This document shows, piece by piece, positions 7,159 to 34,162 of a DNA stretch of 34,584 nt. The stretch comes from Pseudomonadota bacterium. GTDB lineage: Bacteria > Bdellovibrionota > Bacteriovoracia > Bacteriovoracales > Bacteriovoracaceae. The stretch's first letter is position 1; every line of letters begins with the position of its first letter. A program made the translations under genes and the position numbers. The DNA lies in assembly GCA_027487685.1 (NCBI GenBank), contig JAIYDC010000126.1:1-34584 (forward strand), read 5' to 3'. Below the pieces are notes generated by a model, which worked only from the letters and a program-made list of their open reading frames with translations, did not search any database and was not told the DNA's origin.

Positions 7159-8424
7159 TTAGGCCTTCACTCGCTGGATAGATGCTCCGAGCTGAGTGAG
7201 TTTTTCATCGATTTTTTCATACCCTCTATCAAGGTGATAGACCCGCTGAATCTCGGTCTGTCCTTCTGCCTTAAGGGCACAAAGTATGAGTGCGGCCGAG
7301 GCACGCAGGTCGGTGCACATGACCGGGGCCCCGCTCAAGCTTTCTACACCCTCAATCAACGCTGATTTTCCTTTAAGAGTTATCTTGGCACCCATCCGAC
7401 CCATCTCCGGCACATGCATGAAGCGATTTTCAAAGATCGTCTCGGTGACAATAGAGTTTCCTTCCACGACGCTCATAAGTGCCATCATTTGCGCCTGGAC
7501 GTCGGTCGGAAACCCTGGGTAAGGAGCAGTGTCAATAGCGGCCCCCTTCAAGCGCGGGGACTTTCGCACATGAACGTAGTCCACACCTGCTTCAAGATTC
7601 GCTCCCATTTTGGTGAGAGTTTCAAGGACGTAGGAGAGGTGCTTGGGATTAAAACCAGTCACCTTCACATCTGAGCCGGTCATGATTGCAGCGATGATAA
7701 AGGTCGCCGCTTCAATCCGATCACCGATTACACGGTAAGCAGTAGCTGCTGGGCTCAGGTCCTTCAGTTCCATACCGTGGATCGTTACCCGGGACGTTCC
7801 CGCACCTTCGATCCGTACACCCTGAGCGATAAGGAAATCGGCAAGGTCGTCAATCTCAGGCTCCATGGCGGCGTTTTCGATAACTGTCTGTCCCTCGGCC
7901 AGAACCGCGGCCATCATCAGGTTCTCTGTTGCTCCAACGCTTGGAAATGGAAGCGTGATCACCGCCCCCTTAAGCTTTTGCGCCCGGGCCTTAATGTAGC
8001 CGTTTTCAATATGAATCTCGGCCCCAAGTTTTTCCATTCCCATGAGATGGATATCTACAGGCCGTGCGCCGATGGCGCAACCGCCAGGGAGAGACACAGA
8101 GGCCTGACCGTACCGGGCCAGCAAAGGACCCAAAACCAAGACCGAAGCGCGCATCGTTTTCACCAAAGCATAGTCTGCATGCTGGTTTGCCAGTTCAGTG
8201 GCATCGAGTGTTGTCGTGCTACCCCTGTTACTAAGCTTTACTCCCAGACTCTGGAGGAGCTTAATGATGGTGCCTACGTCCATGAGTGCAGGAATGGTTT
8301 CAAAGTTGACTGGGTAAGGGCATAATAAAGTAGCGACGAGGATTGGTAGTGTTGCGTTCTTCGCCGATGAGACGCGGACCTCGCCGGTAAGAGTGCAGGG
8401 TCCATTGACGATTAGTTTATCCAT
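7159..8424 (-). CDS. murA: UDP-N-acetylglucosamine 1-carboxyvinyltransferase
   Basis: A 421-residue cytoplasmic enzyme, full length for the family. MurA transfers enolpyruvate from PEP to UDP-GlcNAc, the first committed step of peptidoglycan synthesis. Seen here: [12 protein letters not shown] (about 18-29) with the conserved Lys-Asn pair, and [25 protein letters not shown], containing the loop cysteine C116 that makes the enzyme fosfomycin-sensitive where present. [11 protein letters not shown] and the C-terminal DLRASAALI and [10 protein letters not shown] blocks also fit. The ATG has GGAG nine bases upstream. hinT follows after one base; a ChaN-like lipoprotein gene is divergent. Confidence 0.96.
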
Positions 8425-8450
8425 AGAATTGTCTCCGTTGGGGTAGATCG

Positions 8451-8479
8451 ATTCTAAAAGTAAAAAGAGGATTTGTCTT
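8451..8479 (-). promoter_or_regulatory. Promoter candidate for murA-hinT
   Basis: On the minus strand AAGACA (8479-8474), a 17-base spacer and TAGAAT (8456-8451) lie 27 bases before the murA start. The -10 hexamer matches five of six consensus bases and the -35 four of six. The -35 element abuts the start codon of the divergent lipoprotein gene. Confidence 0.4.
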
Positions 8480-8480
8480 T

Positions 8481-9344
8481 ATGGCTTTTAAGGCCCTTCT
8501 CCCTACACTCCTGGTGCTCTTTGCCTGTGCTCATCGCGTAGAGGTCAGGGACCTCGCTACCGGAAAAATCCTGAGTGAGGATCGGTTGGTGCGGCGGTTA
8601 CCTGACCGAGGAACGATCGTTATCGGGGAGTCCCATTATACCCCGGTCATCCAGGAGGCCGAAGGTCGCCTCATCCGAAAAGTTGTCACTGAGAAATACC
8701 GAGAAGCGGGATTCACTGTGGGATGGGAATTCCTCCCCTATACGCGGCAGCCGCAGATCACGAAGGCGATGGAGCGCTGGCAAAACGACGGACTTGGCAA
8801 CTGGCAATTTCTTAAGGCCCTCTTTCCCGAGCAAAAATCCCGAGAGCAACACCAAGACTATCTCCCTATGCTCGAGGCCATCCGGGATCTCCGAGGACAG
8901 CTGGTGGGCCTCAACGCTCCCGATGCCTGGAAGAAGACCATCACTAAGTATGGCCTATCACAGCTCTCGAGGGCCCAACGGCCAACCGACGTCTCTACGG
9001 GGACTACGCAGTACCGAGAACGTTTTGATCGGGCGATGAAGCACCACGTACGGAAAAACAATTCGCTTGAACGCTACTTCGAGGCCCAGAACTATACCGA
9101 TGCTGTGATGGCATGGGCGCTTCGGACCAGCACCCACCATACCCTAAGATTTGTGATCACCGGCGCCTTTCATGCCGATTACAATGACGGAGTTGTGCGG
9201 GCGATAGCTCGCACACCGGAAGAGCGTCCTGTAACCATCAAGATGATAGACGCGACAGAGGTCGAAGATAATGACAGCATCGAACTCTTTGAGAATGATG
9301 AAAAATACGGAAAAATCGCCGACTACCTCTATATCATCCGGTGA
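8481..9344 (+). CDS. ChaN-family lipoprotein
   Basis: A 287-residue protein with a lipoprotein signal (MAFKALLPTLLVLFAC, lipidated Cys16). The body matches the ChaN-like haem-binding uptake family of the Tiki/TraB-related superfamily: TIVIGESHYTPVIQ (the GEsH motif, about 46-60), WEFLPY (about 84), LVGLNAP (about 141), YTDAVMAWAL (about 205) and FVITGAFHADYNDGV (about 225-240). Family members have been linked to haem or iron uptake (ChaN) or metal-dependent proteolysis (Tiki). The paired GESH and GAFH histidines could bind a metal or haem. The start has AGAGGA upstream. The 3' end overlaps prmC by 16 bases in convergent orientation. Confidence 0.8.
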   Translation: MAFKALLPTLLVLFACAHRVEVRDLATGKILSEDRLVRRLPDRGTIVIGESHYTPVIQEAEGRLIRKVVTEKYREAGFTVGWEFLPYTRQPQITKAMERWQNDGLGNWQFLKALFPEQKSREQHQDYLPMLEAIRDLRGQLVGLNAPDAWKKTITKYGLSQLSRAQRPTDVSTGTTQYRERFDRAMKHHVRKNNSLERYFEAQNYTDAVMAWALRTSTHHTLRFVITGAFHADYNDGVVRAIARTPEERPVTIKMIDATEVEDNDSIELFENDEKYGKIADYLYIIR

Positions 9345-10078
9345 GCACGGAGGAATCGATCCCGTCCTAGGAGGTCCGGGAGAACTACAGGGTCTGAGAA
9401 TCCTGCGGCCTTAAGCAGAGGAACCTGCTGGGCCACCTCAGACTCGTGGCCTTCCATGAAAAAGACCCCTCCAGGAACCAGGGCCTTAAAAGCGCCGGTG
9501 AACAGCTGAGTAAACCATGCTTCATAAATATCGTCTGAAAGGTACAGGGCAAGCGCCGGTTCGTGCTCATGAACCATTGTGTGGACTCCTGAACGATGAG
9601 CATCTCTCTTAATGTAGGGAGGGTTACTTACAATAAGGTCAAATTTTTTCTCCGCAATACCTTCAAAGCGATCGGTTTGCGAAAAGTTGCAACGGTCAGA
9701 AAGCCTTAGCCGGTGAGAGTTTATCTTCGCCACCTCCAAGGCCTCAGGAGAGATATCTGCACCAGTGCCACATGCATGAGGCAATTTCGCTAGAAGGCTC
9801 AAGAGGATCACACCACTTCCTGTGCCCAGGTCGTAGATCGAAGAGTATTTTTTCCCAGGGCGGAGGATGAGATCCACCAAGAACTCGGTCTCAGGCCTTG
9901 GGATGAGGACCGCCTCGTTGACAAAAAAGCGGTTCTCATAGAAATCAGAAAAGTTTGTGAGGTAGGCAAATGGAACTCCTCGCCGAAGCTCCTCTCGAAG
10001 CTCCCATCGAATACGGATCGCCACCTGGTGCACAGAGTTATCTAGGGAAAGGGCCGGATTTGAGCTCCTCGCCTTCAA
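9329..10078 (-). CDS. prmC: Release factor glutamine methyltransferase (start unresolved)
   Basis: PrmC N5-methylates the glutamine of the GGQ motif in release factors, and it directly follows prfA here. Motifs: FYENRFFV and VLIPRPETEFLVD, the AdoMet loop IYDLGTGSGVILLSLL, and the catalytic NPPYIKRD. From the TTG at 10078 the protein is 249 residues, about 30-40 short of the family. The same frame continues upstream to a stop at 10196-10198 and encodes residues that look like genuine PrmC N-terminal domain (NYPGIELPRFLLEVEDI). That stretch holds no ATG, GTG or TTG: only CTG at 10156, ATA at 10192 overlapping the prfA stop, and other rare candidates. Two ATGs (10176, 10172) lie in the other two frames. 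Confidence 0.9.
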   Translation of the reverse strand: MKARSSNPALSLDNSVHQVAIRIRWELREELRRGVPFAYLTNFSDFYENRFFVNEAVLIPRPETEFLVDLILRPGKKYSSIYDLGTGSGVILLSLLAKLPHACGTGADISPEALEVAKINSHRLRLSDRCNFSQTDRFEGIAEKKFDLIVSNPPYIKRDAHRSGVHTMVHEHEPALALYLSDDIYEAWFTQLFTGAFKALVPGGVFFMEGHESEVAQQVPLLKAAGFSDPVVLPDLLGRDRFLRAHRMI

Positions 10079-10188
10079 AATATCCTCGACCTCAAGCAGA
10101 AAACGGGGAAGTTCGATTCCCGGATAATTCTTCGTGAGTAGCGGCCCATCTTCCAGGAAGAGGGCACTCCATTCATTCCGGAGCGTCT

Positions 10189-11259
10189 TTATTCTTCAGT
10201 CCCCTGGAGAAGGATCGCCTGATTATGGGCAATGAGCGCATCGATCACTTCCTCGATGTCACCATTCATGAACGTCGGAAGATTATAAATCGTGTAATTA
10301 ATCCGGTGATCCGAGATCCTGCCCTGAGGGTAGTTATAAGTCCGGATCCTCTCAGAGCGGTCACCAGTGCCGACCAGACCTTTCCGGGTCGCCGCTTCCT
10401 TGGCCGCCGCTTCCTGGACTTTAAGGTCAAAGATTTTCGTTTTAAGAATCTTAAACGCCTTATCTTTGTTTTTAAGCTGCGATCTCTCATCCTGCATGGC
10501 GATGACGATTCCCGTTGGAAGGTGGGTCAAGCGGACGGCCGAGTCCGAGGTATTCACGGATTGACCACCAGAACCTGAGGAGCGGTATACATCGATCCTG
10601 ATCTCGTTCATATCAAGAACGACATCTCCCACTTCATCGGCTTCGGCCATGACCGCCACGGTGATGGTTGAGGTGTGAATCCGCCCCTGAGCTTCAGTGT
10701 CTGGAACTCGTTGCACTCGATGAACGCCAGACTCGTACTTCATCTTGGAATAGACCTTGTCACCTGAAACATTGACGACAATCTCTTTGAGACCCCGGTC
10801 CCCTTCAGAAATCGATACGACTTCCGAGCGCCAGCCCTTCGCATTGAAATAATTTTTATACATCCGCCAGATGTCTGCGACGAAGATAGATGCTTCGTCT
10901 CCGCCGGCACCGGCCCTAACCTCAAGGATAACGTTCCGGTCGTCGTTCGGATCTTTGGGAAGTAATAAAAGCTTCAGTTCATGTTCGACACCGGGAAGAG
11001 TCTTCTCAAGATCGTTGAGTTCTTCCTTGGCCATCTCCCGCATCTCTTCGTCTTTCTCGTTGTGGATGATGTCTTTATTGCCGGCAATATCGGCGACCAT
11101 CTTTTTGTACTCTTTGTATTTAACAACGATGGGTTCGAGGTTCGAGCGCTCCTCGTTGGTCTCACGGAGTTCCTGGGCGCGATCATAAAGACTCGGATCT
11201 GCAAGTCGCTCGGTCAATACTTCAAAACGTCTGATAACGGCATCTAATTTATGGAACAC
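10189..11259 (-). CDS. prfA: Peptide chain release factor 1
   Basis: A 356-residue class I release factor, full length. It recognises UAA and UAG and triggers peptide release. The GGQ motif is at 231-233 in SGSGGQSVNTSDSAVRLTH. The codon-recognition tripeptide region reads RVPDTEAQGRIHTST; the PxT form marks RF1 rather than RF2 (SPF). No programmed frameshift is visible. The start is GTG at 11259, with CGGGG upstream. prmC, whose product methylates the GGQ glutamine, follows immediately, and the DUF1385 gene precedes it by 21 bases. Confidence 0.96.
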   Translation of the reverse strand: MFHKLDAVIRRFEVLTERLADPSLYDRAQELRETNEERSNLEPIVVKYKEYKKMVADIAGNKDIIHNEKDEEMREMAKEELNDLEKTLPGVEHELKLLLLPKDPNDDRNVILEVRAGAGGDEASIFVADIWRMYKNYFNAKGWRSEVVSISEGDRGLKEIVVNVSGDKVYSKMKYESGVHRVQRVPDTEAQGRIHTSTITVAVMAEADEVGDVVLDMNEIRIDVYRSSGSGGQSVNTSDSAVRLTHLPTGIVIAMQDERSQLKNKDKAFKILKTKIFDLKVQEAAAKEAATRKGLVGTGDRSERIRTYNYPQGRISDHRINYTIYNLPTFMNGDIEEVIDALIAHNQAILLQGTEE

Positions 11260-15287: not shown

Positions 15288-15761
15288 ATGTCTGAATTCC
15301 TCCTTCCTGAAGACCACCCCTTCCATCTCAAAACTATCCTTGCGCTAGACTTCGGAGAAAAATTCATCGGCGTGGCAACCTTTTGTGTCAACCGAGACCC
15401 CTTCCCAACTCCCTATGGGCGCATAGCGAATACTGGACCGAATGCTGTTCTCGGAGAGCTTCGACGCATTGTGGACGATGAGAGCGTCGAGCGCATCGTC
15501 ATCGGCCTGCCTCACCTCACAGACGGCAAGAAGACCTCAACAACCGTTAAGGCGCAAGCTTTTGTCGACTTTATACGAGAGCATTTTACTCTGCCTGTCG
15601 ACGATCAGGACGAGACGCTCTCAACCTATGAAGCTCAGGAGCGAATGAAACAGTCTCCCCGTTACAACTTTCGAGTGGACCTCAAACAAATCGACGCCGT
15701 TGCCGCAAGTGTAATTTTGGAAGATTTTATTCGCCGCACGAAGGACCGTCCTGATTTATAA
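15288..15761 (+). CDS. ruvX: YqgF/RuvX family RNase H-fold nuclease
   Basis: A 157-residue protein. ILALDFGEKFIGVAT (about 17-31) carries the first catalytic aspartate of the RNase H fold, IVIGLPHLTDGKKT (about 70-83) matches the family's IVIGLP block, VDDQDETLSTYEAQERM (about 104-120) carries the D-E-x-x-ST motif, and QIDAVAASVILEDFI the last catalytic aspartate. E. coli YqgF is needed for pre-16S rRNA processing; the family was first predicted to resolve Holliday junctions. It has 15 extra residues at the N-terminus relative to the usual length. It sits between dinB and mltG, spaced by 9 and 7 bases; ruvX-mltG pairs are common. Confidence 0.9.
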   Translation: MSEFLLPEDHPFHLKTILALDFGEKFIGVATFCVNRDPFPTPYGRIANTGPNAVLGELRRIVDDESVERIVIGLPHLTDGKKTSTTVKAQAFVDFIREHFTLPVDDQDETLSTYEAQERMKQSPRYNFRVDLKQIDAVAASVILEDFIRRTKDRPDL

Positions 15762-15768
15762 TCATAGG

Positions 15769-16794
15769 ATGAAAAAACTCCTGCTACTGCTGATCGTCGT
15801 TATCCCGCTTTTCATCCTAGGGGGCCTCGCCGGTCATTTTGTGATGGTCTTCCAAAAAACTTACCAAGGTCCAGACAAGACCTTTGAAGTCAAAAATGGT
15901 GAAACCTTCGGCCGCATCAACCAACGCCTGTTTGAAGAGGGCCTCATTCCCGATAAGAGGCTATTCCATTACTATGCTAAGTACCGGAAGGTGATGACTC
16001 GCTTTAAGGCAGGCCAATTCACAGTTTCTAGTGGCTCCAATATGATTCAGGTAGTTGAGACTCTAGTGCATGGCCAGCCCAACCTCGCGAGCATCACAGT
16101 TCCCGAAGGTAAGAACATGTACGAGATCGCCCGGCTCCTTGATGCCGCGGGCATCACATCCGAGAGGGACTTCCTCGCTGCTGTTGAGGAACCTGAACTT
16201 ATTGGAATGCTCGATGTAGAGGCCAGCTCACTTGAGGGCTACCTCTATCCTGAGACGTATCGTTTCGCACCCAAGACCCCGGCCCGGGTCGTAGCTAAGA
16301 GCATGATTGATTTGTTTAAGGCAAAAACCAAGGGCGTCAACTTTACTCACCCCTTTCTTAATAAGCACCAGGTGATTGTCCTGGCCTCCGTAGTTGAAAA
16401 AGAGACGGGGGCCAAGATCGAGCGTCCTACCATTGCTGGAGTATTCACAAACCGCCTTCGAAAGAGGATGAGGCTCCAGTCAGACCCGACAACCGTTTAC
16501 GGCATCTGGGGGCGCTACCGAGGAAATATTAGAAAAGCAGATCTTCTCGAGTTTACTCCCTATAACACCTACAAGATACCCGCACTTCCGAAGGGCCCCA
16601 TCTCAAACCCAAGTATCGATGCCATCCGTGCCGTTCTTACCCCAGAAACCCACGACTACCTGTACTTTGTAAGTAAAAATGACGGCACTCATATTTTTTC
16701 TAAGACCTATGAAAACCATGAGCTCGCGGTCGATGAATACCAAAGGAATGCAAGGGCGAGGCAGGGAAAAAGCTGGAGAGATTTAAAGCAATGA
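15769..16794 (+). CDS. mltG: Endolytic murein transglycosylase
   Basis: A 341-residue inner-membrane enzyme that cuts nascent glycan strands and may set their length. It has one N-terminal membrane helix (LLLLLIVVIPLFILGGLAGHFV), a LysM-like part (about 38-112), then the catalytic domain: LEGYLYPETYRF (about 155-166), LASVVEKETG with the catalytic glutamate near 210, LQSDPTTVYGIWGRY and YNTYKIPALPKGPISNPSIDAIRAVL. All of these are conserved in MltG (YceG). Last gene of the dinB-ruvX-mltG group. Its end overlaps the facing lipoprotein gene by 12 bases. Confidence 0.94.
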   Translation: MKKLLLLLIVVIPLFILGGLAGHFVMVFQKTYQGPDKTFEVKNGETFGRINQRLFEEGLIPDKRLFHYYAKYRKVMTRFKAGQFTVSSGSNMIQVVETLVHGQPNLASITVPEGKNMYEIARLLDAAGITSERDFLAAVEEPELIGMLDVEASSLEGYLYPETYRFAPKTPARVVAKSMIDLFKAKTKGVNFTHPFLNKHQVIVLASVVEKETGAKIERPTIAGVFTNRLRKRMRLQSDPTTVYGIWGRYRGNIRKADLLEFTPYNTYKIPALPKGPISNPSIDAIRAVLTPETHDYLYFVSKNDGTHIFSKTYENHELAVDEYQRNARARQGKSWRDLKQ

Positions 16795-18135
16795 GACCGG
16801 ACACTCCTCGGTGATCCCTGGGAAAGTCCGTAATTCATCATTATCATTTCGGGTCCACATTAAGATCGATGAACGACCCGAGGACCTGATATTTCTTAAT
16901 GAGAATTGCACAAAGTTAAGTTTGTCGGCGGACTCAATAGTCTCCCCTGAGATACGGGCATAAGCATCCATGCTGCGTTTGAAAGATCTTACCGGTAAAA
17001 CAACATTGTCTACGAATATATTCCGATTGGCGCTCATCGTCGCCAACCATTCGGCGAAGGGTTTAAAGCAGCGAGGAAAGATCTCCGCTTCCTGGCGCCC
17101 GTTTTTAGGGACAAGTTTCACACCGAATCGAACGTAGCGGCTGGCCGAACGGATTGAGTCCTCAAGCTTTTTACGAAGTTCACCAAAGAGCATGGTGGAA
17201 GAAAGCATCTCCGAACGGAAGCGATCAACACGAGCGTAGTTAAGGTCTTTAGCGCATTCGCGGTCGTCTAGGACCGTTCCATCCCAAGGAGTCGGTGCAC
17301 AGGCAAAGTTTGTGGCATGAATCATCTCCTTAAGTTTCTCCCGCAATAGGCCGGTGGACTCAAGGAATTCGCGCAGTTTGGGATCTATGTTCTGAGACAC
17401 CATACTCCGGACTCTGCCACGAGAGTCTATGATCGGTGCACCCGTTCCACCTTTAAGGACGGGGCAGTCGGCGAAAAGCATGTTCGGCGAGGACTCCGTC
17501 CAGACCAGAGGATTGATGTAGTTATTATGAACACTCTCGCAAGTCGCTTTCTTAACCAGGGCGGAGTACTCGTCCTGTTGCTCAATCATCCAGGTAGTAA
17601 ACCGTTGACTATTGGGTACACCGTCACGGCTCAGAACTGCTCGGCGACGGCCCGGAAGCGGCGCCGCCAGTTCGAGGAAGGCAACGTCATCGCGCCATAG
17701 GATGGGATCAGACCCTTCCGTTTTTGAAACAAGGACGACCTTACTGCAACCGATTCGCTCCATCGGTCGATTACCGGCGGCGGGAAAGAAGATAAAGACA
17801 TCCCTGCTGCAGTCCTGTCCATTAAGTCGCAGGAGGGCCGGGAGACAACTTGCACTAGTGGCGAGGAAGTTCTCCTCGGTCAGGAAACCCGTGCATTGCC
17901 TAAAATTATTTCCCAGGATAACTACAATCTTTGCAAGATAGTTCGGGCATGCTTGATTGCCTGGGCAATCCACTGTTTGCCTATCAAGGTACGAGTCAAT
18001 TTCAGTCTGATTTGGCCGAACGACTTCAGGCCTTCCCTCATCACCGGTTTTTGTTTTTTTCCCGCAGGCACTGAAAAGGAGGCAGAGTCCAAGGGAGAGA
18101 AACAGGCTATTCAAGAAACAAAGCCGGGCCACCAT
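16783..18135 (-). CDS. Trypsin-fold lipoprotein with lost catalytic residues (pseudoprotease)
   Basis: A 450-residue predicted lipoprotein (signal ending LLFSAC, Cys24). Residues about 65-260 follow an S1/trypsin-like layout: CTGFLTEENFLATSASCL aligns with the usual TAAHC block, RDDVAFLEL with the aspartate block, and GGTGAPIIDSRGRV with the GxSGxP block. The catalytic histidine is replaced by Ser96 and the nucleophile serine by Thr231; Asp150 remains. If the alignment is right, the protein is probably not an active serine protease and may bind a ligand. The last 190 residues are unassigned. The start at 18135 is used because the signal begins there and the ATG overlaps the stop of the flavin reductase-like gene (TGATG), implying translational coupling. 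Confidence 0.7.
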   Translation of the reverse strand: MVARLCFLNSLFLSLGLCLLFSACGKKTKTGDEGRPEVVRPNQTEIDSYLDRQTVDCPGNQACPNYLAKIVVILGNNFRQCTGFLTEENFLATSASCLPALLRLNGQDCSRDVFIFFPAAGNRPMERIGCSKVVLVSKTEGSDPILWRDDVAFLELAAPLPGRRRAVLSRDGVPNSQRFTTWMIEQQDEYSALVKKATCESVHNNYINPLVWTESSPNMLFADCPVLKGGTGAPIIDSRGRVRSMVSQNIDPKLREFLESTGLLREKLKEMIHATNFACAPTPWDGTVLDDRECAKDLNYARVDRFRSEMLSSTMLFGELRKKLEDSIRSASRYVRFGVKLVPKNGRQEAEIFPRCFKPFAEWLATMSANRNIFVDNVVLPVRSFKRSMDAYARISGETIESADKLNFVQFSLRNIRSSGRSSILMWTRNDNDELRTFPGITEECPVSLL

Positions 18136-18617
18136 CAGTACTCGGCTCCGGATTTTCGAATATGCGACATGGGTTTGGCCTCTTCGTTCAAAACGTAGGA
18201 AGAGAGAACCTCTGCGAAAACAACCTCGTGGTCCCCTGGTTGAACAGAACTGATGAGTCGACATTCAAAGGCGGATTTCGCTTGCTGGAGAATGATTCCC
18301 CCATTCTGGCCGCAAAAGTGGTCAAGGGTCGAAAAAGGGTTATTCACAGGATCATAGCCCTTCCAAAAATGCCTTAAATAGGATTTATCGTGATCGCCAA
18401 CGATATTGACACCGAAGGTCCTGCCCGCCTTAATCAGGTCGTAGGCTGGCCTTCCTGGCTTAATGGCCATCGATATCATTAAAGGTTTGAAAGACACTTG
18501 CTGAACCCAGCTTGCCAGGTATCCGTCGATAGTCTGACCATTCTCATCCTTAACTGCCACAATAAAAAGCCCTGAGGGTATATGGCCAACTGAAATCGCA
18601 ACAACGCTTTGCAGCAT
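18135..18617 (-). CDS. Flavin reductase-like FMN-binding protein
   Basis: A 160-residue protein of the flavin reductase-like split-barrel family. The patterns are IPSGLFIVAVKDENGQTIDGYLASWVQQVSFKPLMISMAIKPGRPAYDLIKAGRTFGVNIVG: a G-(L/I)-x-V-(V/A) strand, the A-S-W-V-x-Q-V-S-x-x-P-(P/L) FMN-phosphate region and the F-x-V-N-x-(L/V) strand. The gap-filling ECRLISSVQPGDHEVVFAEVL also fits, with GDH and V-x-A-E-V typical of the family. Such proteins bind FMN and often use NAD(P)H; the partner is unknown. A promoter with a perfect TTGACA lies upstream. Its stop codon overlaps the start of the pseudoprotease lipoprotein gene. Confidence 0.82.
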   Translation of the reverse strand: MLQSVVAISVGHIPSGLFIVAVKDENGQTIDGYLASWVQQVSFKPLMISMAIKPGRPAYDLIKAGRTFGVNIVGDHDKSYLRHFWKGYDPVNNPFSTLDHFCGQNGGIILQQAKSAFECRLISSVQPGDHEVVFAEVLSSYVLNEEAKPMSHIRKSGAEY

Positions 18618-18649
18618 AAATCCTCGTTATTTATCACTTAGGGCATAAT

Positions 18650-18679
18650 AGATTACAGATTAGAGAGCACCATTGTCAA
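18650..18679 (-). promoter_or_regulatory. Promoter candidate for the flavin reductase-like gene
   Basis: On the minus strand TTGACA (18679-18674) matches the -35 consensus exactly. TAATCT (18655-18650) after an 18-base spacer is only a weak -10. The start codon is 32 bases downstream of the -10. Confidence 0.4.
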
Positions 18680-18708
18680 TTAATCACCCCCTATCTGGTG
18701 AACGGCAT

Positions 18709-18730
18709 CAATTTTTGATCAAAATTGCCG
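18709..18730. promoter_or_regulatory. Inverted repeat between two divergent promoters
   Basis: CAATTTT (18709-18715), a five-base centre TGATC and AAAATTG (18721-18727) form a perfect inverted repeat, flanked by CGG and CCG. It includes the palindrome TTTTGATCAAAA and lies between the two promoter candidates at 18650-18679 and 18745-18773. It could be an operator or a hairpin; there is no downstream U run for a terminator. Confidence 0.35.
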
Positions 18731-18744
18731 ATAAGTCAGGTCAC

Positions 18745-18773
18745 TTGAGTAGGCCGGAGTTGCCGCTTAGAAT
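18745..18773 (+). promoter_or_regulatory. Sigma-70-like promoter for the DksA-type gene
   Basis: TTGAGT (18745-18750), an exact 17-base spacer and TAGAAT (18768-18773), which matches five of six -10 positions. Predicted start near 18780, leaving a leader of about 68 bases. In that leader GCGGGT (18782-18787) can pair with ACCCGC (18822-18827), and AGC with GCT just inside, so the leader may be folded. Confidence 0.5.
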
Positions 18774-18847
18774 AGTTAAGAGCGGGTAGCTTTGCTTACG
18801 TCATGCGTTATTCTGGCTAAAACCCGCATACCGTCCGAGGAGGATTC

Positions 18848-19219
18848 GTGGATAAAAAGAAAACTGAACAATTTAAAGAATTGCTCCTGAAGCACCGTCA
18901 ACAGATTCTGAACGTAGGCCTTCTCAATAGATCAGAAGACCTGCACGTATCCGAGGAAGACCTTTCCGATGAGACTGACCTTGCCTCATCTCTCATCCAG
19001 CAGCAACTCAACTGCACCATCAGGGAGCGAGAATACACAAAACTCCGTCGCATCGACGCTGCCTTGGAAAAAATCTCCGATGGAACCTTTGGCCACTGCG
19101 AGGAATGTGAGGAGGAGATCGGCATGAAACGCCTCGAAAATCAGCCCTGGTCAGAGCTGTGTATCACCCACGCTGAAGAGAAAGAGCGTGAGGAGTCCCA
19201 GACCTGGAAACAGGCGTAA
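18848..19219 (+). CDS. DksA/TraR-family RNA polymerase-binding protein, C-C-C-H zinc site
   Basis: A 123-residue protein. The helical N-terminal part holds DETDLAS (41-47), which fits the D-x-x-D-x-A coiled-coil tip that DksA inserts into the RNA polymerase secondary channel. The zinc-finger region reads GHCEECEEEIGMKRLENQPWSELCITHAEE: Cys84, Cys87 and Cys105 are present, but the fourth ligand position, Cys in E. coli DksA, is His108. GTFGHCEECEEEIG and the R-L-x-x-x-P spacing are classic. The start is GTG, with a strong GAGGAGG site. It has its own promoter and terminator, so it is monocistronic. Shorter than E. coli DksA (151), as in many paralogues; whether it is the main DksA cannot be told. 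Confidence 0.88.
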   Translation: MDKKKTEQFKELLLKHRQQILNVGLLNRSEDLHVSEEDLSDETDLASSLIQQQLNCTIREREYTKLRRIDAALEKISDGTFGHCEECEEEIGMKRLENQPWSELCITHAEEKEREESQTWKQA

Positions 19220-23051: not shown

Positions 23052-23573
23052 ATGAAATTTTATCTTCTAATAATGGCGTTGTTTCTTTTCGGCGGATGTG
23101 CGAGCTACGAAAAGTTTCGGCAGATCACCGAAGAGCTCGAAATTCCGAGTAAGATCTATAAGGCCGACTACAACCAGGCCTGGCAAGCGGTGATCTCAGT
23201 CATGCGCAAGTACGATATTGCCCAGCAGAATCAGGAAGCGGGTTTCATCAAATCGCGGTGGATGGATAATACACTTGAGGTGAACTTCGCCGACTCCTTT
23301 GGGTCTTCAGACGCCGTCAAGGCGGCGAAGTTCAAACTCGTCGTGAACGTTGTGAAGGGATTTCGGTCAGCGCGGGAAGTGACGAAAGTAACGATCTACA
23401 AGCGGCAGCTGGTGGAACAGGATTTCCTTCAAGGCTGGAAAGAAATGAGTCCCGATGGAATCATGGAGAAAACACTCCTCTACCGGATCGAAAGATTGAT
23501 CGCAATTGACAATAAGCTCAAAGAAATCGACAAGGCCCGGGAGAAGGAGCAGCTTCAGTCGAATGGACTTTAA
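23052..23573 (+). CDS. Small lipoprotein, possibly BamC-like
   Basis: A 173-residue lipoprotein (MKFYLLIMALFLFGGC, lipidated Cys16). The mature part starts with a helix and then YNQAWQAVISVMRKYDIAQQNQEAGFIKSRWM, a pattern (an aW.a....... g..i...d...G.i....) also found in BamC/NlpB-type helix-grip domains and many lipoproteins of unknown role. The centre is beta-rich (FKLVVNVVKG, EVTKVTIYKRQLVEQD), and the C-terminus is a charged helix. BamC identity is a suggestion only. Convergent with the HEAT-repeat gene 17 bases away; a hairpin with one wobble pair (23588-23607) lies over that gene's stop. Confidence 0.65.
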   Translation: MKFYLLIMALFLFGGCASYEKFRQITEELEIPSKIYKADYNQAWQAVISVMRKYDIAQQNQEAGFIKSRWMDNTLEVNFADSFGSSDAVKAAKFKLVVNVVKGFRSAREVTKVTIYKRQLVEQDFLQGWKEMSPDGIMEKTLLYRIERLIAIDNKLKEIDKAREKEQLQSNGL

Positions 23574-23590: not shown

Positions 23591-24391
23591 CTAGATTTTT
23601 CTGGACTCCGCCGCAGCAAGCTTTGACCAAAACTTTCTACGTTCACTCACACCATTGGGCGAGCGCTCTCCGGTGATCTTCTCCAATGAATAATCCAGAT
23701 CTTCAATCAGATCCTGGTACATGGGCTTTTGAATCAGCTTCGCTAAAGGTCTTTTGGCCTTCTCAAAGCGTACGTCTCCTAGTGTACGGATAATACTCTT
23801 AACAATCGATGTCCGCTTCCGAGTGCCCTGGTTTCCCGTATAGTTGGTCTGGTCATACATCATGCTCCAAACATTCGGCGCAAGCTTAGTGATGCCGAGC
23901 TTCGAGATATTATCCAGGGCTTGGACCCGAACAATCAACGAAGAATCTCTCAGTGCTTTGGCATAAACGGCGGTGTATTCGGCCTGGCGCAACCCCAGAA
24001 GCGCTTTTAGTGAGGCGACTCGCATCATCCAGTGCGGATGGTCTGTAAACTTCGCAATAAACGGGGCCGACTTCTCACCCATGATCTGCGCCAGAAGCAT
24101 AGTCGCGTGCCAGCGGTTCTGTTCTGGGTACTTACTTTCTTTCATCACTTTAATCAGAGTTGGAACGGCCTTCTGTTTGTGCCTGAAAGCGTTGCGCTTG
24201 AGCATCGCTGCTAATCCCGGACTACGGGCATCCATCATAAACATTTGCTCGAATCGCTCCAGAGAGACAACATCTTCCCGCTGAAGCTTCTGGGGTGATC
24301 CGGGATTTTTCAGAAGCTGAATTGCATTCTGCTCAGCGCCCAAAGCGAAGGCCGAAACACCGAGGAGTATGGCAAAAATAGTAGCTTTCAT
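23591..24391 (-). CDS. Exported HEAT-repeat protein
   Basis: A 266-residue protein with a signal peptide (MKATIFAILLGVSAFALGAE). Residues about 50-240 form helical repeats of HEAT/PBS-lyase type: AVPTLIKVMKESKYPEQNRWHATMLLAQIMGEKSAPFIAKFTDHPHWMMRVASLKALLGL, then DSSLIVRVQALDNISKLGI and GTRKRTSIVKSIIRTLGDVRFEKAKRPLAKLI. Such repeats are protein-binding scaffolds; no catalytic motif is seen. It lies two bases after the coiled-coil membrane protein gene and is probably co-transcribed from the promoter at 25425-25453, suggesting the two proteins may work together. Confidence 0.75.
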   Translation of the reverse strand: MKATIFAILLGVSAFALGAEQNAIQLLKNPGSPQKLQREDVVSLERFEQMFMMDARSPGLAAMLKRNAFRHKQKAVPTLIKVMKESKYPEQNRWHATMLLAQIMGEKSAPFIAKFTDHPHWMMRVASLKALLGLRQAEYTAVYAKALRDSSLIVRVQALDNISKLGITKLAPNVWSMMYDQTNYTGNQGTRKRTSIVKSIIRTLGDVRFEKAKRPLAKLIQKPMYQDLIEDLDYSLEKITGERSPNGVSERRKFWSKLAAAESRKI

Positions 24392-24393
24392 CG

Positions 24394-25377
24394 TTACCCA
24401 AGCATCTTTTCGAACTCCGAGAGGAGGTCGTCATTGTTTAAATTATCCGCTTTCCCCACCGAGGGCGGTGGCGCCGAGACATTGGATTCTGCTTCCGCGA
24501 ACATGCTGTCAATATCGTCCTGGGCCGGAGAAGAGGATGCGGACTCGGCCGATGGGGCGAGGAAATCCTCAAGTGCCTTATTGTCATCCATGGCCACCTT
24601 AGGTGGCGTTGGCGCTCCAAGATCCTGGAGGAGGTCGCTCACATCTGTCTGCGAAAGGATATTATTGGGGTCAGCTGGAGGTCTGATCTGAGGGGCCGGA
24701 CCTGGGCTCTGGGCCGCGAGAGAACGTTTGAGTTGTTCATTCTCCTGCTGGAGGCGCTTCAGGTTTGCAAGATCATCAGAGATGATTTCAAATTCCTTAA
24801 GACGATCGCGGATCTCATCCCGCTCTTTTGAGACCATAACGAGTTCGGTTTTTAAGGCCGCATCGCCTCCCCCACCCCCAGCGCGGGCCTGAGCGAGAAG
24901 AGCCTCGAGTTCTCGGATTCTTGCTTCAGCTGAGGCAAGTGCCGCCTGGGAAGCTGCCAATTTCGCCTCGATTTCCCTTTGTGAAGCCTGAGACGCAGAG
25001 AGCTGCGACTCAAGGGAGGCGATAATGGCTCGCTTCTGATTTAATTCCTCGAGAAGCGCAGTAGACGGAGCACCAGAAACTCCGAGTGATTCTCCTCCCG
25101 TGAGATGGGACAGTGGCATAACCGAGGGAACACCGGTGGCCTCGAGTCCTCCACCGCGAAAGAGTTGAGACTTAAGTGCTGTAGAATTCTGAATAATAGA
25201 GTCGAGATAACTTTTAACTACAGTAGCGGGGATGGCGTGTTTGAGGTTGTGATACTTTCGACGATTCGAAAACCACAGCCATAGGAAGAGCGTGGACAAG
25301 ATGACCAGGAAGCCGAACTGGATGACAAGCAGTTCGGGCCCAAACTTGTCCAAGTAATTTACAACCGTTTCGAACAC
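24394..25377 (-). CDS. Membrane-anchored coiled-coil protein with repeated FliM-like acidic motifs
   Basis: A 327-residue protein of unknown function. One N-terminal membrane helix (about 13-36, ELLVIQFGFLVILSTLFLWLWF) leads to a long coiled coil (about 105-222, Leu/Glu/Ala heptads). The last 90 residues are Pro/Ser-rich with four short acidic-hydrophobic motifs: LSQTDVSDLLQDL (241-253), NKALEDFLA (266-274), AQDDIDSMFAEAE (285-297) and NNDDLLSEFEKML (314-326). The first and third resemble the SQ-x-(E/D)-(I/V)-D-x-L-L peptide at the start of FliM that binds CheY. The start is GTG at 25377, preceded by GGAGGGG. It is transcribed from a near-consensus promoter and followed by the HEAT-repeat gene. 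Confidence 0.7.
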   Translation of the reverse strand: MFETVVNYLDKFGPELLVIQFGFLVILSTLFLWLWFSNRRKYHNLKHAIPATVVKSYLDSIIQNSTALKSQLFRGGGLEATGVPSVMPLSHLTGGESLGVSGAPSTALLEELNQKRAIIASLESQLSASQASQREIEAKLAASQAALASAEARIRELEALLAQARAGGGGGDAALKTELVMVSKERDEIRDRLKEFEIISDDLANLKRLQQENEQLKRSLAAQSPGPAPQIRPPADPNNILSQTDVSDLLQDLGAPTPPKVAMDDNKALEDFLAPSAESASSSPAQDDIDSMFAEAESNVSAPPPSVGKADNLNNDDLLSEFEKMLG

Positions 25378-25466: not shown

Positions 25467-26333
25467 CTACTTCTGATTAAGGATAGCAAGAAGTGGTCTA
25501 TAGAGCGCCGGGTGCGCACAGAGGACGGAGCTGCCAAAAGCATGGTACTTCTCGCCGCCTATTCCTGAGATCTTCACTCCAGCTTCCTGACAAATGAGCC
25601 CGGCCGCGGCCATATCCCAGGGCTGAAGCCGATGCTCCCAATAGGCATCCAGCATCCCAGCGGCGACATAGCTGAGTTCTAAGGCCGCACTTCCGAACCG
25701 GCGCATGGCCCGGACTTCTGGGAATTCCTTCAAGAGATCTTTCTCCACTCGCTTGCTGGTAAGATTTGCCGACAGAAGCGCTTCCTTAAAACCTTTCTTG
25801 CTCTTCGTGGCCTTGAGCTGTACTCGAACTTCTCGCTCCCCGATGAGCCGAACCAGATAGGCCCCTTCACCTCGAACTGCGTAGAAGAGTTCGCAGCTGA
25901 CAGGATTATAGACGACACCGGCCAGAGTGGTATTGCCGTGGTTAAGCGCCAGGCTCACCCCGAAGAAGGGAACCCTATTATAAAAGTTGTTAGTTCCATC
26001 TAGGGGATCGATGAGCCAAAGGTACTCGCTGTTCTTGACACCCTCGACCTTAAGCTCTCGGGCGAAGGCATCCTCCTCTGAAAGGATCTTGTGGGTTGGG
26101 TAAGCTGCCCGGATCTGCTCCATAACATACTTCTCTGATAGCACGTCAGCTTCCGTGGCCACTCCCTGCTTCCCTTTGTCGATTACCTTCATAGGCGTCT
26201 CATAAGACTGGACCAGATAGGAGTTCAGAATATCTCCACAGGCGAACGCCCATTCAATCATGTGGTTTAGGACCTCCTCCAGGTTAACGGAGGTCGTCTT
26301 CGTCGCTGCTTTCTTCGTCAGAGTTTTTTTCAT
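25467..26333 (-). CDS. suhB: Inositol monophosphatase-family phosphatase
   Basis: About 288 residues. Magnesium-dependent sugar phosphatase motifs are intact: ILSEEDAF (Glu-Glu-Asp), [25 protein letters not shown] and the late [29 protein letters not shown] with the Trp-Asp metal ligand. Family members hydrolyse inositol monophosphate, histidinol phosphate, PAP or fructose 1,6-bisphosphate; the actual substrate cannot be told here, so suhB is a family label. The start at 26333 overlaps yacG by 50 bases. An alternative ATG at 26261 follows GGAGGAGG (11 bases away) just past the yacG stop, but the [19 protein letters not shown] helix that homologues share begins before it. Confidence 0.87.
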
Positions 26334-26520
26334 TGATAAGTTGCTCGAGGGTTTGCTGTTCGTCTTCCGTAAGTTTCTGCACCGGAACAGCGTAAGACTC
26401 AGTAAGCCACTGACCGAGGTCAATCAAACGGCACCTCTCGGAGCAGAAGGGCCGGAACTCAGAAGAGTAATAGGCGAACTTTTTCTTACACGTCGGGCAG
26501 GCGACTTCAATTTTTTTCAT
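26284..26520 (-). CDS. yacG: YacG-type zinc-binding DNA gyrase inhibitor
   Basis: A 78-residue protein. ACPTCKKKF and [24 protein letters not shown] are the full YacG signature, with zinc ligands Cys8, Cys11, Cys26 and Cys30. In E. coli YacG binds GyrB and inhibits gyrase. The C-terminal third is acidic ([15 protein letters not shown]), a little longer than average. Its ATG overlaps the upstream aminotransferase-like gene by four bases (ATGA), and its 3' end overlaps the predicted phosphatase start. Confidence 0.92.
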
Positions 26521-33760: not shown

Positions 33761-34114
33761 TCAGTTTTGTTGCAACATACTTTGAAGTATATCAGGTATT
33801 TTGAAGGGATCAAAAGGTCGGTCGATCTGCCCGATTCGTTTTCCCAGGAAGTCGAGCTCAGCACCACCATCAACGGTCACAACCGGCAGGGCGCGGAAAG
33901 CGGGAGAGGCGTCGTATTGGCGGCGAAGGGCATCGGCGTGAACTCTCGCTGCGGCCAGGTCTAAAACCAGAAGTTCTGGCCTTAGGTCGTCGATCAAGTA
34001 GTTGAAATCCTCAGCAGTCTCAAGGGCATAGAAGGGAAGGCCTCGTTGTTTGAAGACGCGCTCCAGGAATCCCGTCGCAATTGTATTCGAATCTATCCAG
34101 AGGACCAGACCCAT
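33761..34114 (-). CDS. Degenerate receiver-domain protein
   Basis: A 117-residue single-domain protein with a CheY-like pattern: VLWIDSN at the first strand, LLVLDLAAA with the likely phospho-acceptor aspartate (about residue 48), LPVVTVDGG where the switch residue lies, and IDRPFDPFKIPDIL. The invariant Lys of the K-P-x-x motif is Arg (DRPFDP), and the acidic pair is reduced to one Asp, so phosphorylation is doubtful. The start at 34114 is taken because the first beta strand begins there. Divergent from the small acidic protein gene, and a short membrane peptide may follow it. Confidence 0.65.
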   Translation of the reverse strand: MGLVLWIDSNTIATGFLERVFKQRGLPFYALETAEDFNYLIDDLRPELLVLDLAAARVHADALRRQYDASPAFRALPVVTVDGGAELDFLGKRIGQIDRPFDPFKIPDILQSMLQQN

Positions 34115-34162
34115 GGCTCGTATCCTTTGACAAAGAGGGTCACCGATAACTACCATCGGACC

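Follow-up and report, generated by a model that had tools for sequence, protein, structure and literature searches.

A phylum-wide membrane coiled-coil protein of Bdellovibrionota with a probable docking-peptide tail and a distribution that follows the flagellar motor

The window analysed here, a stretch of 34,584 nucleotides of Bacteriovoracaceae DNA, contains a gene for a real, uncharacterised scaffold protein that is found phylum-wide and carries a tail of docking peptides. The family has one plan and stands as one copy in nearly every genome, and its normal form follows the flagellum. We give even chances to the reading in which this protein is a membrane-anchored flagellar or chemotaxis scaffold at the cell pole, where the pole and the clients are what we infer.

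Gene, predicted architecture and conserved blocks

The scaffold ORF (327 amino acids, Table 1) reads from 25377 down to 24394, begins with GTG after a GGAGG ribosome site and ends with a stop codon at 24394–24396. It is a real gene, of which the 3.79 Mb genome has only one copy. The ATG of the HEAT gene lies 2 bases downstream of this stop codon, and the upstream neighbour is a gene that we take, from its sequence, to be suhB-like. The surroundings are metabolic genes and no flagellar operon, a setting that counts against a flagellar role. Two other genes of the window deserve mention: a lipoprotein-like gene (23052–23573, plus strand), which in the window and its relatives is convergent with the HEAT gene almost class-wide and often beyond, and a gene for a 131-residue protein (33761–34156, minus strand) that by eye looks like a degenerate receiver (LLVLDLAAARV, IDRPFDP) and gave no Pfam match.

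Table 1. Features of the scaffold locus (window coordinates; aa, residue numbers of the scaffold protein).
Feature	Position	Strand	Basis or remark
HEAT-repeat protein gene, apparent signal peptide	23591..24391	-	HEAT_2 E=3.7e-8; conserved neighbour
Membrane coiled-coil scaffold gene	24394..25377	-	ORF reading and orthologues
C-terminal docking peptide NNDDLLSEFEKMLG	24397..24438	-	near-invariant in class, recognisable across much of phylum; model helix 315-326
Motif 2 AQDDIDSMFAEAE, aa 285-297	24487..24525	-	this genome and one relative (87% identity) only
DDNKALEDFLAP peptide, aa 264-275	24553..24588	-	genus-level conservation; short helix in model
Motif 1, FliM-like peptide NILSQTDVSDLLQDLG, aa 239-254	24616..24663	-	p ~0.001 against shuffled tail
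Coiled coil 2, aa 178-223, conserved end EFEIISDDLANLKRLQQENEQL	24709..24846	-	alignments and model
Coiled coil 1, aa 107-164	24886..25059	-	model, sequence; many weak coiled-coil family matches
Juxtamembrane block, aa 41-77, KYHNLKHxIPAxVVKxYLDSIIQNSTALKSxLFRGGG	25147..25257	-	highly conserved in Bacteriovoracia
Membrane helix, aa 17-36	25270..25329	-	sequence; inside confident helix 13-48 of model
suhB-like inositol monophosphatase gene (presumed)	25467..26423	-	conserved upstream neighbour (synteny)

An AlphaFold2 model built on 19 orthologues (mean pLDDT 68, pTM 0.25) gave helices at residues 13–48, 51–74, 106–166 and 172–223, with high confidence up to residue 223. Over most of residues 224–314 the pLDDT fell below 50, indicating a disordered tail, in which short helices were placed at 267–272 (ALEDFL) and at the C-terminus (315–326). 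The model thus supports the membrane helix (about 17–36), the long coiled coil (106–166 and 172–223) and the disordered tail that the earlier note had described. The sequence RRKYHNLKH that follows the membrane helix suggests, by the positive-inside rule, that the C-terminal part of the protein is cytoplasmic and its short N-end periplasmic, and the protein probably forms an oligomer through its coiled coil. Searches of Pfam, NCBIfam and PHROGs found no known domain in it, and these searches, like the PDB sequence search, returned coiled-coil noise only.

Of the 129 class genomes 116 gave scaffold matches, as did 295 of the 369 genomes of Bdellovibrionota, the named relatives being Bacteriovoracaceae, Halobacteriovorax and Bacteriovorax (class stands for Bacteriovoracia, phylum for Bdellovibrionota and family f3 for Bdellovibrio, as assigned from the names of relatives). 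Among 75 class orthologues three blocks are conserved: the juxtamembrane block (KYHNLKHxIPAxVVKxYLDSIIQNSTALKSSLFRGGG in this set), the final part of coil 2 and, at the C-terminus, EDLLSEFEKMLG. No other element of the tail comes as close to invariance as the C-terminal DLLSEFEKML, which varies little or not at all; LLSEFEKML is invariant in the 19-row alignment. The earlier note had listed this extreme C-terminal stretch as a looser FliM-like copy. The peptide is indeed present, yet it is the truly conserved element of the tail, its strongest one, and it is not FliM-like in detail.

Co-occurrence with the flagellum

Bdellovibrionota swim with flagella, and FliM was present in 319 of the 369 genomes. 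Scaffold and FliM occurred together in 283 genomes and were both missing from 38; the scaffold was found without FliM in 12 and FliM without the scaffold in 36, which gives an odds ratio of 25, a value that ignores phylogeny and includes losses from few lineages and reduced genomes. The FliM-only class of 36 comprises at least two false negatives for the scaffold (G262 and G263). All 12 genomes with the scaffold and without FliM are less than 90% complete, and among genomes at least 90% complete none had a recognisable scaffold form without FliM.

Many flagella-less genomes retain the HEAT gene and the lipoprotein gene, and the HEAT gene was for this reason rejected as an obligate flagellar partner. 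In flagella-less G065 the scaffold gene is cleanly missing and suhB abuts the HEAT gene; in flagella-less G250 it is a presumed pyrC-like gene (named by its sequence) that abuts the HEAT gene, and in flagellated L269 these two genes flank the scaffold gene. An explanation by the flagellum alone was nevertheless rejected, since the flagella-less genus g28 (L260, L262 and L263, all without FliM) retains at the same place a short, strongly diverged homologue with the C-terminus DKDEIIDVFKKLLAS. Because this homologue keeps the C-terminal peptide without FliM, whatever binds there is not necessarily a flagellar protein. The normal form follows the flagellum, but the contact made by the C-terminus may be of greater age or breadth.

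The persistence of this peptide class in g28 and its standing as the only near-invariant tail element also speak for a general organiser of the pole or envelope, resembling FimV/HubP in its work and not by descent. Its main client, which would bind DLLSEFEKML, would be non-flagellar; the link to the flagellum would then be one among others, with FliM-like peptides as occasional additions. Such an organiser would fit the conserved company of a HEAT gene whose product is probably periplasmic and which many flagella-less genomes retain, as well as the variable acidic cytoplasmic regions by which HubP/FimV deal with many clients (PMC12918733). We nonetheless consider it rather unlikely: the scaffold gene was cleanly lost beside a retained HEAT gene in G065 and G250, and near-complete genomes with a recognisable scaffold form all have FliM.

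FipA and HubP are membrane scaffolds of similar layout that position flagella and chemotaxis arrays in other bacteria (PMC11620751, PMC12918733). Like HubP/FimV, the scaffold protein has a membrane helix and a long, acidic, largely unstructured and fast-changing cytoplasmic region with repeats, which here are short peptides; it differs in being smaller, unrelated in sequence and without a TPR domain. LysM and the FimV C-terminal domain gave no Pfam or NCBIfam match in the window protein and are absent from the families listed for 19 orthologues. The layout shared with gammaproteobacterial FipA suggests another rival, a receptor for FlhF: helix and coil would bring FlhF to the pole, and FlhF or FlhG, instead of CheY, would be bound by the tail peptides. 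FipA likewise has a tiny periplasmic N-end, a single N-terminal membrane helix and a coiled region (PMC11620751), and both the co-occurrence with flagella and the FlhF-like and FlhG-like genes of this genome agree with such a role. Against it, DUF2802 of FipA had no match in the window protein and is absent among the 25 families listed for 19 orthologues, the scaffold gene is not linked to flhF, and FipA has nothing corresponding to the long disordered tail with its docking peptides. We therefore regard a FipA-type receptor as quite improbable, and membership in either the FipA or the HubP/FimV family was rejected, their defining domains being missing.

A single flagellar cluster of this genome contains the genes for FlhA, FliL, a sigma factor, an SRP54-type GTPase and a MinD/ParA ATPase; by their sequence and position the last three read as FliA, FlhF and FlhG, respectively. 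Near the flagellar cluster, on L345, a long, proline-rich run of PPPPFQ repeats at 8343–8798 (plus strand), opposite the ORF at 8144–10264 (minus strand), results from one way of reading a simple DNA repeat. L345 also carries three tandem paralogues (15553–16686, 17035–18147 and 18197–19000) with NSPFNRIPVxDQDGIGLCYA, a stretch reminiscent of a papain-type active site; the first of them gave no Pfam match.

FliM-like and other peptides of the tail

Tandem FliM-like motifs had been proposed in the tail, and the coordinates and letters of the earlier note were right: LSQTDVSDLLQDL (residues 241–253) and AQDDIDSMFAEAE (285–297) are there verbatim, and two looser copies are present as ALEDFLAP and DDLLSEFEKMLG. 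We scored the tails with a BLOSUM profile that combined the FliM N-ends of the class with three others; the N-end of this genome's own FliM is AQVLSQDEVDALLNAV, nearly invariant in the class. Motif 1 (ILSQTDVSDLLQDL) was a significant match, with p ~0.001 when the tail that holds it was shuffled for comparison. By this scoring most orthologues are without motif 1, and 12 of 100 tails, which are not independent, reached p <0.01. In a genome scan made as a DNA pattern, with the reversed pattern as control, FliM-like peptides were not enriched (23 sites versus 20), so that the argument for motif 1 rests on its place and conservation and not on rarity; a plausible disordered context was found at two pattern sites only, FliM itself (VLSQDEVDALLNAV) and the scaffold protein.

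Alignment of orthologues, a check that the earlier note had suggested, upheld the claim of tandem FliM motifs for one motif only and did not support two conserved FliM copies. About half of the sequences from the same genus retain motif 1, often as DVSDLFEDLG, and the rest of the class has lost it; motif 2 is limited to the window and one close relative. Under the refuting condition of the earlier note, motif 2 therefore fails beyond that relative and motif 1 beyond part of the genus, although the linkers are likewise unconserved. ALEDFL is conserved at genus level. Compared with the 87% relative, motif 1 shows 9 synonymous and 1 nonsynonymous codon changes and motif 2 shows 6 and 1, whereas the linkers between the motifs show 2–6 synonymous and 4–8 nonsynonymous changes. 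As the motifs hold against synonymous change and the linkers do not, motif 2 may be young and not random.

Better FliM-like peptides were found in orthologues of other families, as LDQDAIDALLEG (family f22), SQEEIDRLF and SQDELDSLL. Family f22 keeps LDQxAIDALLEGxPxxPP within a hypervariable tail (L274–L277, L279, L145 and L149). Elsewhere we found SQDELDSLLG in G344, VDQSAIDALF in G337, SQEEIDRLF in G207, ADQDAIDAML in G265 and two copies of an ADDIDALF-type peptide in the G226 tail. These tail peptides resemble the N-ends that FliM has in the class and in the phylum. In the shuffle test the best members of the window clade, f22 and G344 reached p <=0.001, and G207 and G265 p ~0.002–0.004; G226 and G210, each taken alone, were not significant. 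With the C-terminus excluded, the tails contained 24 peptides of the DDLLxEF class (0.2 in shuffled tails), 16 of the DTDKMLxEM class (1.0) and 24 of the FliM-like IDALL class (0.6), counts that are descriptive, as the patterns were picked once the tails were in view and the sequences share ancestry. Candidate docking peptides take forms such as ILSQTDVSDLLQDLG, LDQDAIDALLEGKP (f22), DDIDSMFAEAE and DDLLSEFEKMLG, beside the peptide VLSQDEVDALLNAV of this genome's own FliM. Since the FliM-like, DDLLxEF and DTDKMLxEM peptides recur in orthologues, far above shuffled expectation, the multivalent docking tail is a property of the family, and a docking tail of this kind on a membrane coiled coil, as the earlier note had supposed, is the best reading. 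Within it the FliM-like peptide, as read from these tails, is a recurrent, lineage-specific module. The L321 tail (G196) has three tandem copies of a DDLMxEF-type peptide, VDDDLMAEFAAAVADQKAGTLDS, two exact and one near-exact, besides several DTDKMLSEV peptides, a recent amplification of docking repeats.

As another rival, the FliM-like peptides might be chance products, amphipathic acidic stretches within disordered tails that are themselves acidic and rich in alanine/proline. This would suit the genome-wide pattern that does not exceed its reversed control, the absence of motif 1 from most orthologues and the near uniqueness of motif 2, but it is improbable, since shuffles of the same tails rarely reach FliM-like scores, the peptide is constant inside the variable f22 linkers, the motifs of the window pair are held against synonymous change and such peptides appear in several separate families.

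A possible role near the motor

We propose that the protein would be a Bdellovibrionota-specific, single-pass inner-membrane coiled-coil scaffold at the flagellated pole, whose disordered cytoplasmic tail would display several short amphipathic helices, each serving as a docking site. In the window lineage these would be the FliM-like peptide, ALEDFL, DDIDSMF and the obligatory C-terminal DLLSEFEKML. Most likely it would keep clients from the flagellum or the chemotaxis system close to the motor, and the FliM-like peptide would tentatively bind a CheY-type receiver, a step that we put at somewhat below even chances. CheY binds the EIDALL peptides of FliM and FliY, and this contact is a first capture site that raises local CheY-P before the binding to the FliM middle domain (PMC9126983). 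A scaffold with one or more EIDALL-type peptides near the motor could likewise capture CheY-P, or compete for it. The likeness lies in ILSQ..V..LL of the window and xxIDALL of f22, in the same register as FliM N-ends; unlike in FliM and FliY, the scaffold peptide is internal in the disordered tail of a membrane protein and not N-terminal, and in the window motif S-D replaces D-A. The FliM domain PF02154 and the FliN domain had no match in the scaffold, and the true FliM is encoded elsewhere in the genome.

CheZ was found in none of 125 class genomes. On the scaffold protein the CheZ model PF04344 remained below its cut-off (13.0 versus 30.7 bits), its last residues aligning to the stretch that holds motif 1 (E=0.097). 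CheZ ends in VDDLLDSLGF, which resembles SDLLQDLG and DDLLSEF of the scaffold; unlike CheZ, the scaffold is without the phosphatase helix bundle. As these bacteria have no recognisable CheZ, the membrane peptide site may act as a local CheY sink or concentrator beside FliM.

A single-domain CheY-like receiver (L097:6832–7233, Response_reg E=2.3e-20) directly follows the HEAT gene in Bacteriovorax sp. BSW11_IV (L097/L129), and a receiver also follows it in G349 (L143). Such a CheY-type receiver adjoins the scaffold locus in two lineages among about 150 loci, no more than chance might give, and an operon-encoded receiver was rejected as the general partner. Rare as this arrangement is, it offers a natural partner lead.

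The boldest form of our proposal, in which a phylum-wide, domain-less membrane scaffold would repeatedly evolve FliM-mimicking peptides and pool receivers of the CheY type at the flagellar pole of predators that lack CheZ, seems doubtful; if true, there would be a second CheY site outside the motor, shaping switching by local sequestration. The best-ranked papers from our search on polar landmarks and FlhF did not deal with Bdellovibrio, so the way in which Bdellovibrionota build and steer their pole seems little described. Since its distribution follows that of the motor, the family probably serves as an overlooked organiser of this pole, and a nearly universal membrane protein that follows the motor and bears a docking array is a direct candidate for this building and steering. 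The family would also test the repeated evolution of CheY-binding peptides outside FliM, FliY and CheZ, with its natural variants ready-made.
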